From positions 1 to 64,000 of the forward strand of contig JAUYTV010000058.1 of the NCBI GenBank assembly GCA_030694985.1: 64,000 nucleotides of DNA, read 5' to 3'. Positions within the stretch are counted from its first letter, which is position 1, and each line of letters begins with the position of its first letter. The position numbers were made by a program, and so were the translations under genes. This DNA is from Methanoregula sp. Its GTDB lineage: Archaea > Halobacteriota > Methanomicrobia > Methanomicrobiales > Methanospirillaceae. The notes under the pieces are model-generated. The model was given only the letters and a program-made list of their open reading frames with translations, did not search any database and was not told where the DNA came from. Positions 35,104-44,288 of the stretch are shown one piece after another.

Positions 35104-35850
35104 ATGACTTTGGATGCATTTTTTTACCAGATCTTCGAGAACATTCCCCGCCAGGGACCCGGCTGCCAGGGTGCGACAAGGAAGGTCTTTTCATATCTTC
35201 CCCCACTGCCCCCCTTGGCATCCGTTCTTGACATAGGATGCGGGAGCGGCACGCAGACCCGGGACCTTGCCCGGCTCACCACCGGTACAATTACGGCAGT
35301 GGACAATCACCAGCCGTTCCTCGATGCGGTCAGCAAAAAAGCAAAAGAGGACGGTACTGAGGGACGAATCAAAACCGTTTGCGCTTCAATGGATTCTCTT
35401 CCCTTTGATCCGGGACAGTTCGACCTCATCTGGTCTGAAGGAGCCATTTTCATCATGGGTTTTGAGCAGGGACTGGCAGCATGGAAACCTCTTTTAAAGA
35501 ATGGCGGGCACATGGTGGTCTCCGATGCGGCATGGTTTGAACCCAATCCTCCCCGGGAACTGGTCGAGTGGTGGGAGACGGAGGGGTACATTCCCAAAAC
35601 GGAGGAACAGCTCAGGGAGCAGGTGAAGAATGCAGGACTCAAACTCATCAGGACGTACCGGCTGCCGGAAGTCGGGTGGTGGGAAAACTACTATGTCCCG
35701 ATGCTGGCCCGGATTGCAGATTTGAGAAAGACCCACGGATCAGATCCTTCCTGTGCCGCTATCCTTGACTCATTGGATAACGAAGCAGAGGTGTACCGGA
35801 AGTACAAACGGTATTACGGGTACACGTTCTTTGTTATGCAGAACCCCTGA
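35104..35850 (+). CDS. Class I SAM-dependent methyltransferase, copy 1
   Basis: VLDIGCGSGTQTRDLA; FDLIWSEGAIFIMGFEQGL; 248 aa, alignable without gaps to 43542..44288. Confidence 0.92.
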   Translation: MTLDAFFYQIFENIPRQGPGCQGATRKVFSYLPPLPPLASVLDIGCGSGTQTRDLARLTTGTITAVDNHQPFLDAVSKKAKEDGTEGRIKTVCASMDSLPFDPGQFDLIWSEGAIFIMGFEQGLAAWKPLLKNGGHMVVSDAAWFEPNPPRELVEWWETEGYIPKTEEQLREQVKNAGLKLIRTYRLPEVGWWENYYVPMLARIADLRKTHGSDPSCAAILDSLDNEAEVYRKYKRYYGYTFFVMQNP

Positions 35851-37617: not shown

Positions 37618-37702
37618 AGGTTACACTAATAGATCTGGTGGGAACTATAAAAATCCCGACACCCCGTATACGGATGCTCTGCCAATTGAGTCTGGCGTTA
37701 TG

Positions 37703-37729
37703 TGGAAAAAAATCCCTTCTTTTTTTCCA
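37703..37729. promoter_or_regulatory. Palindromic operator candidate, copy 1
   Basis: TGGAAAAAAA-n-TTTTTTTCCA followed by CTTTTTATG TATA-like. Confidence 0.5.
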
Positions 37730-37929
37730 AACTCCTTCCCTTTTTATGACCCTGAATGAAACAAGCATGAAACAACAAACCGGCCCTCAAGCGGGTAAAA
37801 TCGGGGATTTTTCAGGGAGTATCCTGTAATGTTCGCCCCTCCGATCTTTAATGATTGGGAATATCTCGCTGGTGCGGGCAGATGTATCGACGCACAGGAC
37901 CAGAAAACCAACATAAACGGAGGAAAAAT

Positions 37930-38268
37930 ATGGAAATTCACCAGAGCACATCACAGGGTGTGACAATCATTACCCTCATCGGCAGGCTGGATACAAACAG
38001 CACTTCGGCATTCGAAGAGGATCGCAGAACGTGGATGGCGGGACCGATCATTCTTGACCTGAGCAGCCTCGATTATATCAGCAGTTCCGGTCTCCGGGTC
38101 TTTCTCCAGTTGAAACGGGATTGCGCAAAGAAGAATACCTCAATTGTCTTTGCCGGGAGCCGTGGGAGTGTCGATAAGGTCATCAGGGTGAGCGGGTTTG
38201 AAAATATCTTCCCGCGGTACCCCTCAGTGGAAGACGCACTTCAGGCAGTTGCGGCGGCGAGTGCATGA
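37930..38268 (+). CDS. STAS-domain protein (anti-sigma-factor-antagonist type)
   Basis: TIITLIGRLDTNSTSAFEED...ILDLSSLDYISSSGLRVFLQL with conserved Ser. Confidence 0.9.
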   Translation: MEIHQSTSQGVTIITLIGRLDTNSTSAFEEDRRTWMAGPIILDLSSLDYISSSGLRVFLQLKRDCAKKNTSIVFAGSRGSVDKVIRVSGFENIFPRYPSVEDALQAVAAASA

Positions 38269-39401
38269 TTATGGCGGGCGTGTGGCAGGATACCATCGGG
38301 AAATCAGAAAATTTCCAGGCTATGATGGCAGATATGACCCCCCCAGATCATACTCCGGCATGCGGACCGGTATCGCACAATGCCCTTCCCGGCATAGATA
38401 TCCATTGCTTACGGCCGGAAGAAGCAGACGGGGTTGCACTGCTTATGCATGAAGTGTACCGGGATACCTATCCCAAGAAATATGTGTATGATCCGGAACA
38501 GATCCGCAAGAAAAACGCGATGGGAGAGATAGTCCCGGTCGTAGCGACCAGCTCGGAAGGAAGGGTTCTTGGTTACGGTGCGATGAATCCCGTTAACGCG
38601 TATCCTGAGACCGGTCTGCTGGGTTCCCTTGCGGTATTGCCGGTTTTTCGCAGTCACGGTCTTGGGGGATTGATACTCCGGCATCTGTTGAGCTGCAGTG
38701 AAGGCAGAGGATTTCAGAGTCTCACGGGTGGTGCCTTCACCGTGCACCCCTACTCCCAGATGGCACTCCAGAGATTGGGATTTCACACTAGTGCCATCCT
38801 GCTCGGTTCGCAACCGCAGGAGATATCGTTCCAGGGGATCTCAGGAAAACTGGGTCAGCGGGAGAGCATGGCGTTTCTCACCAAAGTGATCTCACATGAA
38901 GAGTACGGGCTCCAGTACCTCCCCAGTAACCATCACAGGATTATACAGGAGATAACCACAGAACTCGGGTTGCGAATAATTCCTGGCAGCGGGGAAAGGT
39001 TCGGACATGAATCAACAGTTACCGAACACTCAATAAATAAAGAAACCGGCGCCGGAATTGTGTTGATCCAAAGAGTCGGTCCAGATCACCGGGTGATACT
39101 TGCAGGGATAGTCAGACAACTCCGTACAAAGGGTGCAAAGAGTATCAGGCTGCATCTTTCACTGAGTGATCAAGGATCACCGGCACTTGCATCCGCAGCA
39201 GAAGAGATGGGATTTATTTTCTCGGGAATACTCCCGACAAAAGACGGGATTATCCTTCTTCTCCAGAACCTGCATGGAGTTCCCATAGATTACGAACAGA
39301 TCCATATGGGTAATCCCTTTGGAGAACGGTTGCTCTCTTACATAAGGTCCCAAAACCCGATTGAAGAGACCGATTCACGTCAGATGATTCAGAATAACTG
39401 A
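38265..39401 (+). CDS. GNAT acetyltransferase (possibly two GNAT-like halves)
   Basis: LRPEEADGVALLMHEVYRDTY...LGSLAVLPVFRSHGLGGLILRHLL; start overlaps STAS stop. Confidence 0.8.
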   Translation: MIMAGVWQDTIGKSENFQAMMADMTPPDHTPACGPVSHNALPGIDIHCLRPEEADGVALLMHEVYRDTYPKKYVYDPEQIRKKNAMGEIVPVVATSSEGRVLGYGAMNPVNAYPETGLLGSLAVLPVFRSHGLGGLILRHLLSCSEGRGFQSLTGGAFTVHPYSQMALQRLGFHTSAILLGSQPQEISFQGISGKLGQRESMAFLTKVISHEEYGLQYLPSNHHRIIQEITTELGLRIIPGSGERFGHESTVTEHSINKETGAGIVLIQRVGPDHRVILAGIVRQLRTKGAKSIRLHLSLSDQGSPALASAAEEMGFIFSGILPTKDGIILLLQNLHGVPIDYEQIHMGNPFGERLLSYIRSQNPIEETDSRQMIQNN

Positions 39402-39415
39402 AAGGAGTTATAACA

Positions 39416-40720
39416 ATGACACAAGTAAAAAAGGCTCAGAAAGTGGTAGTAATAGTGAATGGATTATCTTCAGGAGTTTTTCTGGCACCAAGGTTTCAGG
39501 CGCGGGGAATTGCCTGTATCCACCTTCTGAGCCATGCGATCTTTCCAGAAGGGATAAAATCAATGAAGACGGCAGATCTGAACAACACAGATTCCTATTA
39601 CCTGGAGTCCCTGGTTTTTGAAGGGGATTACGATAGAATCATCAACACTCTTAAGAAGTATACGGTTATCGGCATCATTCCCGGTATGGAGCTCGCTGTA
39701 CCTCTTGCGGATGCCCTGAGTGAGCGGATGGGTCTCCCGACAAACGGCACCCGTGGCTCCGCGGCACGGCGAAACAAATACCTGATGCAGTGCGCACTCC
39801 GAAATGCCGGTCTGCCCACGAAACGATTCCTCTGCACAAACAGCGAAGAAGAAGTCCTCAAATGGGCCCGGTCAGAAGGGATAAACGAAGTCGTCATAAA
39901 GCCGATGAACAGCGCCGCAACAGACGGGGTGAGGTTCTGTAATTCCGATGATGAGATCCGGGAGGCATTCCGGGCAATCATCGGCCAGGAGAACCGTATC
40001 GGTGAGATGAACAATGAGGTTCTTGCAGAAGAACGCTTAATCGGAACGGAATTCGGGGTGAATACTGTCTCATGGGATGGGAAACACCGGCTTGCCGAGG
40101 TCTGGGAGTACAGCAAAGTCAGGGTTGAAGGTGCAGGAAATGTGTATGACTGCACCCGGCTGCATGACTGGCCGGATGCGAAGCTGATGCCACTCATCAG
40201 GTATGCTTTCGGTGTCATCGACGCATTGGGAATCCGTTATGGAGCTGCCCATACTGAAATCATACTTACTGAGAGGGGGCCGCTCCTTGTCGAGTCGGGC
40301 GCCCGGGTCATGGGGGGGAAGATCCCTCCGGATCTCATTATGCAGTGCGCCGGCCAGTGCCAGGTCGACCTTATGGCCTTTGCGTACGTGGACCCAAAGG
40401 GATTCCTTGAACAGGTCGATACCGCATACAATCTCCGTTGCCAAATCATACGGAAGCATCTCATTGCCGGGTGTGAGGGAGTTCCTGAAGGGGAGATCTT
40501 TGCGATCGATAAACTTGCAGAGCTTAAGAGCTGTGTCAAGGGGGATTTTGTTCACCTGATCAGTGACTGGTATGTTCACCGGACCGTGGACATGCTCTCC
40601 AGCCCGGCAACGGTCTTCCTCCTCCACGAGGACCCGGAGATCATACTGAATGATTACCGCACCATCCGTGACTTTGAGATAAATCACGAAAAAGAACTCT
40701 TCAGTGTGGGAAGTACCTAA
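39416..40720 (+). CDS. ATP-grasp enzyme, amino-acid-ligase/BacD-like
   Basis: NKYLMQCALRNAGLPTKRF, EVVIKPMNSAATDGVRFC, VLAEERLIGTEFGVNTVSWDGKH, AHTEIILTERGPLLVESGARVMGG. Confidence 0.85.
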   Translation: MTQVKKAQKVVVIVNGLSSGVFLAPRFQARGIACIHLLSHAIFPEGIKSMKTADLNNTDSYYLESLVFEGDYDRIINTLKKYTVIGIIPGMELAVPLADALSERMGLPTNGTRGSAARRNKYLMQCALRNAGLPTKRFLCTNSEEEVLKWARSEGINEVVIKPMNSAATDGVRFCNSDDEIREAFRAIIGQENRIGEMNNEVLAEERLIGTEFGVNTVSWDGKHRLAEVWEYSKVRVEGAGNVYDCTRLHDWPDAKLMPLIRYAFGVIDALGIRYGAAHTEIILTERGPLLVESGARVMGGKIPPDLIMQCAGQCQVDLMAFAYVDPKGFLEQVDTAYNLRCQIIRKHLIAGCEGVPEGEIFAIDKLAELKSCVKGDFVHLISDWYVHRTVDMLSSPATVFLLHEDPEIILNDYRTIRDFEINHEKELFSVGST

Positions 40721-40752
40721 AAAAAACCACCGATACTTGAGCCTGATCAAAC

Positions 40753-41985
40753 ATGACAATAGCAGAAAGGGGCGAGACAGCGGATGCTGTTGTACTGGAC
40801 CCGTCAAAAAAATATGGAATTATCCTGATCCTCTATTTCGCGGCATTCGCAACGATGCTCGGGATCGGGACCATAGCCCCGGCCCTCCCCCTCTATGCCC
40901 AACTGATGGGAGCCTCAGGTTTCTGGATCGGGATCATCTTCTCATCTTTTTCCCTGTCACGGACCATCTTCCTCCCAATCTTTGGGAAACTCTCCGATCA
41001 GCATGGCCGGAGGATGCTCCTTCTTATAGGTCTGTCCGGCTATGCGATCTTCTCAGCGCTGTATGTGATGGCAGATTCGGTTTTTACCCTCTCCCTTATC
41101 CGGTTCCTCCACGGTATCGCTGCGTCAATGGTCTTCCCGGTCGCGGTTGCCTATGTAGGGGACATCGCTACGGTTGGTGAGGAAGGACAACTGATGGGGG
41201 GGTTCAACAGCGCTGCGTTCCTCGGTATGAGTTTTGGTCCCCTGCTCAGCGGTGTACTGATGGATTACATCGGGATATCCTCGGCATTCCTTGCACTTGC
41301 CCTGATCTCGGTGATAACCGCATGGGTCTGCCTGGTCTCTCTTCCCGACTACCGCACACGGCCCCGTCAGCCAACCCCCCTTCTGGAAGTCTTCCGGCAC
41401 CCGGCGCTCCGCATCCCGATATTCTTCTACCTCGTGTATTCGGTTGCCTACGTGACGTTTCTCATCTACCTGCCGATCATCACCCGGACCATGGGACAGT
41501 TCAGTGGAATCGAGATCGGAGCCCTGCTCTTTATCGGAACTGTAACCATGGCCGGCGTCCAGAAAATATCCGGCAGGATTGCAGACACCTCCAACAAATA
41601 TCTCCTTCTTGCAACCGGGATATCAGTTATCGCAGTGTCCTGCATTCTTATCGCGTTTGCGGGCAGCTTCTTTGAGTATGTCGGTGCGGTTGTCATCCTC
41701 GGGTGCGGTTTTGGGATATCATTGACAACGGTTTCGGCGCTGGTAACAATAGCCGGGCGTGAGACCGGACAGGGCAGTGCGGCGGGAGTGGTCAACATGG
41801 CCCAGGGTGTCGGCTTCATCATAGTTCCAGCAATCTTTGGTATCGTGATGGACTATTCGGGTGTAAGGACAGTTTTCATCATTACAGCTGTTGTAGCTCT
41901 CGCAGCGGCACCATTTCTTCTCTCCGCGGGAAGGAATCCGCTGCCTCCTCTGCCGCAAAATATCCCGGTGCCAACTGGTAAATAA
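40753..41985 (+). CDS. MFS transporter (drug-efflux type)
   Basis: 12-TM protein; FLPIFGKLSDQHGRRMLLLIGL MFS motif A. Confidence 0.92.
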   Translation: MTIAERGETADAVVLDPSKKYGIILILYFAAFATMLGIGTIAPALPLYAQLMGASGFWIGIIFSSFSLSRTIFLPIFGKLSDQHGRRMLLLIGLSGYAIFSALYVMADSVFTLSLIRFLHGIAASMVFPVAVAYVGDIATVGEEGQLMGGFNSAAFLGMSFGPLLSGVLMDYIGISSAFLALALISVITAWVCLVSLPDYRTRPRQPTPLLEVFRHPALRIPIFFYLVYSVAYVTFLIYLPIITRTMGQFSGIEIGALLFIGTVTMAGVQKISGRIADTSNKYLLLATGISVIAVSCILIAFAGSFFEYVGAVVILGCGFGISLTTVSALVTIAGRETGQGSAAGVVNMAQGVGFIIVPAIFGIVMDYSGVRTVFIITAVVALAAAPFLLSAGRNPLPPLPQNIPVPTGK

Positions 41986-42100: not shown

Positions 42101-42131
42101 GTTGGAAAAAATCCGATCTGTTTTTTCCAAC
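42101..42131. promoter_or_regulatory. Palindromic operator candidate, copy 2
   Basis: Perfect 11-bp arms GTTGGAAAAAA-TCCGATCTG-TTTTTTCCAAC, then TTCTTATACT. Confidence 0.6.
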
Positions 42132-42204: not shown

Positions 42205-42378
42205 ATGACCAGACGAAAGTCAAACCAGGAATTTGAGACCGATGAGGAGTTCTTCTTTGACTCTCTCGGAGGTCATGGCAGGGACCCGTCCCTGTTCTCA
42301 CTCTGGCAACTGCTCAACGCGACACCCCTCCCGTCGCTTAAGGCAGTAACAAAAAAGACCTCTAAAGCGAACAATTGA
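42205..42378 (+). CDS. Small hypothetical protein (57 aa)
   Basis: MTRRKSNQEFETDEEFFFDSLGGHGRDPSLFSLWQLLNATPLPSLKAVTKKTSKANN downstream of palindromic promoter. Confidence 0.5.
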   Translation: MTRRKSNQEFETDEEFFFDSLGGHGRDPSLFSLWQLLNATPLPSLKAVTKKTSKANN

Positions 42379-42661: not shown

Positions 42662-42691
42662 TTGGAAAATTTCCCCGTTCTTTTTTCCAAC
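42662..42691. promoter_or_regulatory. Palindromic operator candidate, copy 3
   Basis: TTGGAAAA-n-TTTTTTCCAAC then CTTCCCGCTCTTCATATC, aligned with copy 2. Confidence 0.55.
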
Positions 42692-42763: not shown

Positions 42764-42886
42764 ATGACTGAATTTGGGGCGTCACAAGAAGCGTATGTCT
42801 TTTCCCCATGCATGATTATCCAAGACCATCTGCTCATCCTCAATAATTCGGATGGGTGCATTACTTACACAGGAGATAAACTATGA
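42764..42886 (+). CDS. Small hypothetical protein (40 aa), translationally coupled to next gene
   Basis: MTEFGASQEAYVFSPCMIIQDHLLILNNSDGCITYTGDKL*; stop overlaps ATG at 42883. Confidence 0.4.
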   Translation: MTEFGASQEAYVFSPCMIIQDHLLILNNSDGCITYTGDKL

Positions 42887-43311
42887 TAAAACGACGTTTA
42901 ATCCTTAATTCCTTACTTGCAATAGCTGTTATGTTCCTCCTTTCCATTTCTGTCGCACCAGTAATGGCAGCAGGGCATAACGGGAATATGGCAGTATTCA
43001 CGGACGCAGATAACGGCACGACCCAGGATATTACGTTAGAGAACTGGTTCGTAGTCAAATTACACGAGAATCCCACAACCGGTATCGTCTTGATCCCAAC
43101 GTTTTCGTCCGGCCTTAATCTAATCTCTGATACTTACAAGGAAGATCCGAACCCCGGAATGATGATGGATGTTGGTAGGACGCGTACCTGGATTGTCCAT
43201 GCAAAGAATACCGGCGACCAAAAATTCTCGGTAGTCTATCGGAAACCATTGATGCCATTCATCGTAAAAGAGACCGCTTTTGTCATGTACTTGAATGTTG
43301 TAAAAGCATGA
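42883..43311 (+). CDS. Secreted chagasin/I42-type protease inhibitor candidate
   Basis: Signal peptide (LLAIAVMFLLSISVAPVMAA); VVKLHENPTTGIVLIP matches the NPTTG inhibitor loop. Confidence 0.75.
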   Translation: MIKRRLILNSLLAIAVMFLLSISVAPVMAAGHNGNMAVFTDADNGTTQDITLENWFVVKLHENPTTGIVLIPTFSSGLNLISDTYKEDPNPGMMMDVGRTRTWIVHAKNTGDQKFSVVYRKPLMPFIVKETAFVMYLNVVKA

Positions 43312-43541: not shown

Positions 43542-44288
43542 ATGACACCTGAAGAATTTTTTTACAATGTATTCGAGTTCCTCCCACGGCAGGGGCCCGG
43601 GTGCACGGGTGCAACAAGGAAAGCATATTCATACCTCCCACCCATTCCTGGGGATGCGAAGATCCTAGATATTGGATGCGGTTCAGGTACCCAGACAAGG
43701 GACCTTGCCGGCCTGACCTCCAACACGATAACAGCAGTGGATAATCATCAGCCGTTTATCGATGCCATCGCCGCACAGGCTCAGAAGGATGGTATGGCAG
43801 GACGGATCCGGGCTGTGTGTGCCTCGATGGATACCCTGCCGTTTGAGCCGGGGCAGTTTGACCTCATATGGTCCGAGGGGGCCATCTTTATCACGGGATT
43901 CGAACAGGGACTCCGGGCATGGAAACCGCTCGTCAAAAAAGAAGGGTTTATTGTGGTCTCTGACGCTGTACGGTTCGAGGCAGATCCCCCTGTCGAACTT
44001 ATGCAGTACTGGGAAAAGCTGGGGTACCCGCTCCTCTCCGAACAAGAACGGGTGGAGCAGATCCAAAGAGAGGGGCTCAGGTTCATTGCAATGTACCGGC
44101 TGCCGGAAGCCGGGTGGTGGGAGAACTTCTATGTTCCGATGCTTGCCCGTGTGGCAGAGCTCAGGAAAACTTACGGGAACGATCCCACCCTTGCTGCTAT
44201 CCTTGACTCCTTCGAGCTCGAAGTGGAGATGTACCGGAAGTATAAGTGGTACTTTGGGTACACGTTCTTTGTGATGCAGAATCCCTGA
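43542..44288 (+). CDS. Class I SAM-dependent methyltransferase, copy 2
   Basis: ILDIGCGSGTQTRDLAG; same length and ends (YTFFVMQNP) as copy 1. Confidence 0.92.
   Translation: MTPEEFFYNVFEFLPRQGPGCTGATRKAYSYLPPIPGDAKILDIGCGSGTQTRDLAGLTSNTITAVDNHQPFIDAIAAQAQKDGMAGRIRAVCASMDTLPFEPGQFDLIWSEGAIFITGFEQGLRAWKPLVKKEGFIVVSDAVRFEADPPVELMQYWEKLGYPLLSEQERVEQIQREGLRFIAMYRLPEAGWWENFYVPMLARVAELRKTYGNDPTLAAILDSFELEVEMYRKYKWYFGYTFFVMQNP

Follow-up and report, generated by a model that had tools for sequence, protein, structure and literature searches.

A movable STAS-GNAT-ATP-grasp-MFS cassette in methanogenic archaea that may make and export a small amide-linked metabolite

What might an archaeal operon make that joins a STAS switch protein of the anti-anti-sigma type to an acyltransferase, an ATP-grasp ligase and a drug-efflux-type pump, and how could it be controlled in an organism with no sigma factor for such a switch to act upon? 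To our knowledge, standalone ATP-grasp ligase pathways, well known in bacteria, are hardly described in archaea, and the same is true of small-molecule synthesis combined with a bacterial-type switch and a dedicated DNA control site. The locus considered here lies in a 64,000-nucleotide stretch of a Methanoregula sp. contig (JAUYTV010000058.1), all of which is referred to below as the window. We assign a probability of roughly 0.6 to the reading that the four genes make and export a small amide-linked metabolite under the control of a winged-helix/TPR protein and a palindromic operator, with the STAS protein belonging to a partner switch.

The four open reading frames are co-directional and tightly packed (37930-41985), with a 4-nt overlap between STAS and GNAT, a 14-nt gap before the ATP-grasp gene and a 32-nt gap before the MFS gene; the STAS gene is preceded by a good Shine-Dalgarno sequence, GGAGG. 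Place, strand and Pfam domains agree with a preliminary description of this DNA made from the letters alone, which had also pointed to a phosphorylatable SSSG motif in the STAS protein, present as ISSSG (Table 1). The best NCBIfam model for the transporter, TIGR00880, scores 93 bits, below its cut-off of 131. PADLOC returned no match, and the GNAT had no relatives among the viral contigs scanned, so that nothing indicates a phage or defence origin. An Rfam search gave only a sub-threshold match, and literature searches on the STAS-GNAT-ATP-grasp-MFS combination yielded nothing relevant.

Table 1. Positions of the features of the locus in the window, with the basis for each assignment
Feature	Position	Strand	Basis
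Divergent regulator candidate, N-terminal winged helix + TPR superhelix, 544 aa	35983..37617	-	TPR matches just below Pfam cut-offs
Operator 1, GTGGAAAA-N11-TTTTTTCCAA, between TPR gene and STAS	37702..37730	.	palindrome search
TATA-box-like element TTTTTATG, just downstream of operator 1	37741..37748	+	sequence reading; aligned position kept in relatives
STAS (anti-anti-sigma type), 112 aa, ISSSG	37930..38268	+	PF01740 4e-20; TIGR00377 67.8 bits > cut-off 53.45
Tandem-GNAT acyltransferase, 378 aa, RxxGxG acyl-CoA loop	38265..39401	+	Acetyltransf_1 1e-6
ATP-grasp ligase, PRK07206/DdaF/L-amino-acid-ligase type, 434 aa	39416..40720	+	ATP-grasp_4 4e-9; NF005543; HTE + ESGAR active-site motifs kept
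MFS transporter, drug-efflux type, 410 aa	40753..41985	+	MFS_1 1e-52
Operator 2, perfect palindromic arms, before microprotein ORF	42102..42130	.	palindrome search
Microprotein, 57 aa, conserved, SLxSLWQLL motif	42205..42378	+	
Operator 3, before I42-inhibitor unit	42662..42690	.	palindrome search
Chagasin-type (I42) inhibitor-like protein, downstream of operator 3	42883..43311	+	PF09394 1e-11
Class I SAM methyltransferase, conserved right flank of cassette site	43542..44288	+	paralogue 35104-35850, 68% identical

The ATP-grasp enzyme is the component that says most about the chemistry. Its likeness to amino-acid and dipeptide ligases, proposed in the preliminary description, is borne out by a score of 365.5 bits against the family cut-off of 302 for NF005543/PRK07206 (residues 8-422; full-length homologues score 338-355 bits), by the nearest solved chain, an L-amino-acid ligase (PDB 30VH, E=6e-66, full length), which a profile built from seven relatives matches at 4e-88, and by the active-site HTE and E-x3-R motifs, which are retained across the relatives. 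Membership in a housekeeping ATP-grasp family, the outcome singled out beforehand as decisive against the proposal, is ruled out by the scores for PurD (49.5 of 288 bits), Ddl (23.7 of 243) and PurT (20 of 502). The protein also falls under the equivalog cut-offs for DdaF (NF041595; 219.4 vs 840 bits) and for the alanine-anticapsin ligase BacD (NF053745; 22.8 vs 850 bits). Judged by sequence, then, this is an enzyme of the amino-acid/dipeptide-ligase type, related to DdaF but not DdaF itself. Of the earlier suggestion that ligase, acyltransferase and exporter follow the logic of a dipeptide antibiotic cluster, the ligase type stands, whereas a dipeptide antibiotic is not supported, either by the DdaF and BacD scores or by any further antibiotic-pathway genes. 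Among 100 relatives, the ligase occurs in this genus and otherwise in just two genomes, which belong to another family of the order; 393 genomes sampled across the phylum revealed no wider distribution. In those two genomes, G085 and G060, an ATP-grasp-SAM methyltransferase fusion adjoins a STAS gene and an SNF-type Na+ symporter (L038:8223-10133, L039:7957-9867); the fused methyltransferase has no detectable relationship to the one that flanks the cassette. A diverged, shortened homologue occupies the equivalent site in G017 and G020; that of G017 is probably inactive, as STR, D and W stand in place of its HTE and E-x3-R motifs. A plasmid search located a Streptomyces homologue that has a second ATP-grasp, an iron-containing redox enzyme and an MFS transporter as neighbours.

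The arrangement is not a chance one: six genomes of the genus (this one and G008, G014, G028, G030 and G033) share all four genes in identical order, with identities down to about 48-64%, and the co-occurrence in other genomes on which the preliminary description had staked its proposal is thus seen. A contig scan found a single match, G008 contig JANYKQ010000033, a near twin of the window. The cassette site lies between the TPR gene and a microprotein-methyltransferase-PurE-aminotransferase block, and its content varies: G011 carries STAS-STAS-GNAT without ligase or pump, which implies that the STAS and GNAT genes can be retained where the ligase is absent, G006 carries a STAS gene with an unrelated 576-aa protein, and in G036 and G038 the site is empty. 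In the window, methyltransferase paralogues flank the cassette on both sides; the relatives examined have one, on the right. Between G000 and G008, dS is 0.20-0.23 in the four genes and 0.39-1.6 in the flanking genes, with the microprotein intermediate at 0.33; since the values within the block are lower than those of its flanks, the block appears to have moved or recombined as a unit, and more recently than its surroundings. We therefore read the four genes as a horizontally shuffled cassette. Within it, omega values of 0.11 for the ATP-grasp and 0.17 for the MFS protein indicate purifying selection, and those of GNAT and STAS (0.34-0.39) weaker constraint.

This patchy and mobile distribution bears on the possibility that the product stays in the cell, as an N-acetylated dipeptide or acyl amino acid serving as compatible solute or store, with the MFS protein as importer or overflow valve. 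Known acetylated dipeptide osmolytes, such as N-acetylglutaminylglutamine amide (NAGGN), are made by a GNAT together with an ATP-grasp enzyme, and the Na+ symporter beside the STAS gene and ATP-grasp fusion of G085 and G060 would fit such a role. An osmolyte pathway is not expected to be patchy and mobile, however; no NAGGN-synthetase model appears among the GNAT or ATP-grasp matches at E<=0.01, and the transporter resembles drug-efflux families, so that we regard an intracellular solute as rather unlikely.

The GNAT, which had been described as unusually long, is predicted to adopt a tandem GNAT fold behind a disordered N-terminal stretch of ~40 residues, and its context in other genomes links it to partner switching. 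Its distant homologues in five other Methanomicrobiales genomes are fused to an N-terminal HATPase_c_2 (RsbW-type) domain, which the GNAT of the window does not have. In G041, a related methanogen, such an RsbW-GNAT gene comes last in a co-directional operon that runs SpoIIE, STAS, RsbW, MFS, LuxE, LuxC/AMP-binding and AMP-binding ligase before it, and a Salmonella plasmid carries, in matching order, an acyl-protein synthase, a LuxC/AMP-binding protein, a ligase and a related GNAT. Two side observations may be recorded here: in G041 an archaeal SpoIIE-STAS-RsbW module is found complete within an operon that also carries synthesis genes (L138:1080-4436, L031:8646-16324), and the LuxE-LuxC-ligase-GNAT biosynthetic module of Salmonella resides on an IncF conjugative plasmid (L063:4785-10948). 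These neighbourhoods also weigh against a detoxification or resistance cassette, in which the GNAT would modify, the ATP-grasp conjugate and the pump expel a toxic environmental amino-acid-like compound. The drug-efflux type of the transporter would suit that role, as would the best structure matches of the GNAT, phosphinothricin/arsinothricin-type N-acetyltransferases; but many small GNATs give matches of this kind, the score against ArsN, at 21 of 125 bits, is far from the cut-off, and the GNATs of G041 and the Salmonella plasmid have LuxE-LuxC-ligase synthesis enzymes rather than resistance genes as neighbours. We consider detoxification improbable.

If synthesis and export of a metabolite is the function of the cassette, the STAS protein would be its switch. 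Ser52 is presumably the phosphate acceptor, by comparison with Ser58 of SpoIIAA, and the acceptor region varies in some relatives (SSSA, SSTG, SRTG). An RsbW-type kinase is absent from the four-gene operon; because the GNAT family is elsewhere fused to RsbW, and in view of the G041 operon, STAS is best seen as a relic or a member of a partner switch. The preliminary description had found a STAS protein an odd controller in an archaeon. Here it is not odd: STAS proteins number seven in this genome, alongside one clear RsbW (contig C15) and four SpoIIE phosphatase loci over the cut-off, and the full module exists in G041; with such numbers, the cognate partners could act in trans. The target of STAS might be the GNAT or a shared kinase, and the operon of the window looks, from its gene content, like a reduced, ligase-swapped relative of synthesis operons controlled by partner switches.

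A second layer of control appears in the DNA itself and, together with the divergent winged-helix/TPR gene, the cassette nature of the locus and the link of the tandem GNAT to RsbW fusions, goes beyond the preliminary description. A 29-bp palindrome, TTGGAAAA-N11-TTTTTTCCAA, starts at 37702, 42102 and 42662 and adjoins the TATA boxes of three units, the operon and, downstream of it, the microprotein and I42 units; the TATA-like box follows it at near-constant distance. The window contains 7 strand matches to the 29-bp pattern against 0.10 expected, a number that no shuffle reached, and the good copies in this genome occur only at this locus, with one non-palindromic match elsewhere; a looser pattern proved too unspecific (64 matches vs 34 expected) and was replaced by the spaced one. 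The palindromic site is found in 13/14 genus genomes with the TPR gene and in 1/22 without it (Fisher p=8e-8, uncorrected for phylogeny). Across 12 relatives the TPR protein keeps 59-81% identity, and its gene is present beside empty cassette sites as well; the protein is modelled with an H-H-H-strand-strand winged helix at residues 20-92 followed by TPR helices (mean pLDDT 73); its best structure matches are generic TPR proteins (LGN), with Rap and NprR lower (E~1e-4). We infer that this protein binds the operator.

The operator is not restricted to the cassette and its neighbours. In relatives with more sites, some of them weaker matches, it also precedes genes for a SpoIIE phosphatase, MoxR, a beta-lactamase-fold protein and small Cys-containing secreted-like proteins, which suggests a wider regulon in some relatives. 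Specifically, it stands before genes for a Cache-HAMP-SpoIIE phosphatase in G024 and MoxR ATPases in G024 and G030 (L124:5150-7279, L126:5394-6380, L135:5099-6085). It also lies directly upstream of the 576-aa gene at the G006 cassette site (L084:8570-10300), the product of which has no Pfam or NCBIfam match and the ATG of which keeps a 104-nt spacing, as in the microprotein. In almost every relative the microprotein, which has no Pfam match, has its ATG about 104 nt from the start of the operator, and a GC hairpin in its 5'-UTR folds significantly in some members, not all. As a RiPP precursor it was rejected, having no family match and persisting without the ligase. Its place directly downstream of the operon under a shared operator, and the envelope regulon suggested by the MoxR, beta-lactamase-fold and secreted-like genes, could mean that the target of the operon is the cell envelope or a macromolecule, for instance a surface polymer or the microprotein, and that no free small molecule is made. 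This seems to us very unlikely, given that the microprotein persists at cassette sites that are empty or lack the ligase and that the characterised relatives of the ligase act on free small substrates. Similarly doubtful is an archaeal small-molecule or peptide signalling cassette, in which the winged-helix/TPR protein would act as a receptor and, on sensing either what the ligase makes or the microprotein, switch the locus on via the palindromic operator, while STAS/RsbW would gate the enzyme directly because no sigma factor exists as a target.

In the preferred reading, a synthesis and export cassette, the ATP-grasp enzyme would couple an amino acid, via an acyl-phosphate, to another amino acid or a second amine, the tandem GNAT would acylate the amino-acid substrate or the product, and the MFS protein would export the product; substrates, reaction order and export direction are inferred. 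The winged-helix/TPR protein would control transcription by binding the 29-bp palindrome beside the TATA box of the operon, the microprotein gene and the I42 unit, and STAS would be a member or relic of a partner switch with its kinase unlinked here and fused to the GNAT in related methanogens. With an operator and a likely regulator in hand, the system is directly testable, and an ATP-grasp ligase locus with a clear control site is present in cultivable methanogen relatives. The RsbW-GNAT fusions and the G041 operon suggest that partner switching can control metabolite synthesis in place of sigma factors which, if true, would address the role of archaeal STAS and RsbW proteins.

Among known systems, the PRK07206/NF005543 family (DdaF and the L-amino-acid ligases 30VH, BL00235 and BacD) is close in its full-length homology and its HTE and E-x3-R motifs, and a Streptomyces plasmid cluster also in its neighbouring MFS gene; unlike these, the locus is archaeal, has STAS and GNAT partners, misses the DdaF and BacD equivalog cut-offs and includes no other dapdiamide or bacilysin genes. 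RRNPP-type regulators such as NprR and Rap share with the TPR protein a DNA-binding-like head on a TPR superhelix and a small ORF nearby, and appear among its structure matches; however, there is no sequence match, LGN scores better, the head is a winged helix rather than the HTH of NprR, and no signal peptide is evident on the 57-aa microprotein. The LuxE-LuxC-AMP ligase-GNAT cluster of the Salmonella conjugative plasmid CP054717, without STAS and RsbW in the stretch read, resembles the cassette in that a related GNAT (34% identity over ~140 aa) ends a ligase-based synthesis module, but that plasmid and G041 use LuxE/LuxC chemistry where the window uses an ATP-grasp. From the bacterial partner switch (RsbU/SpoIIE, RsbV/STAS and RsbW), the operon differs in containing neither kinase nor phosphatase and in belonging to an archaeon without a sigma factor to control; it agrees with that switch in its acceptor-serine STAS protein, in the kinase and phosphatases encoded elsewhere in the genome and, in G041, in a full module linked to the same GNAT family.
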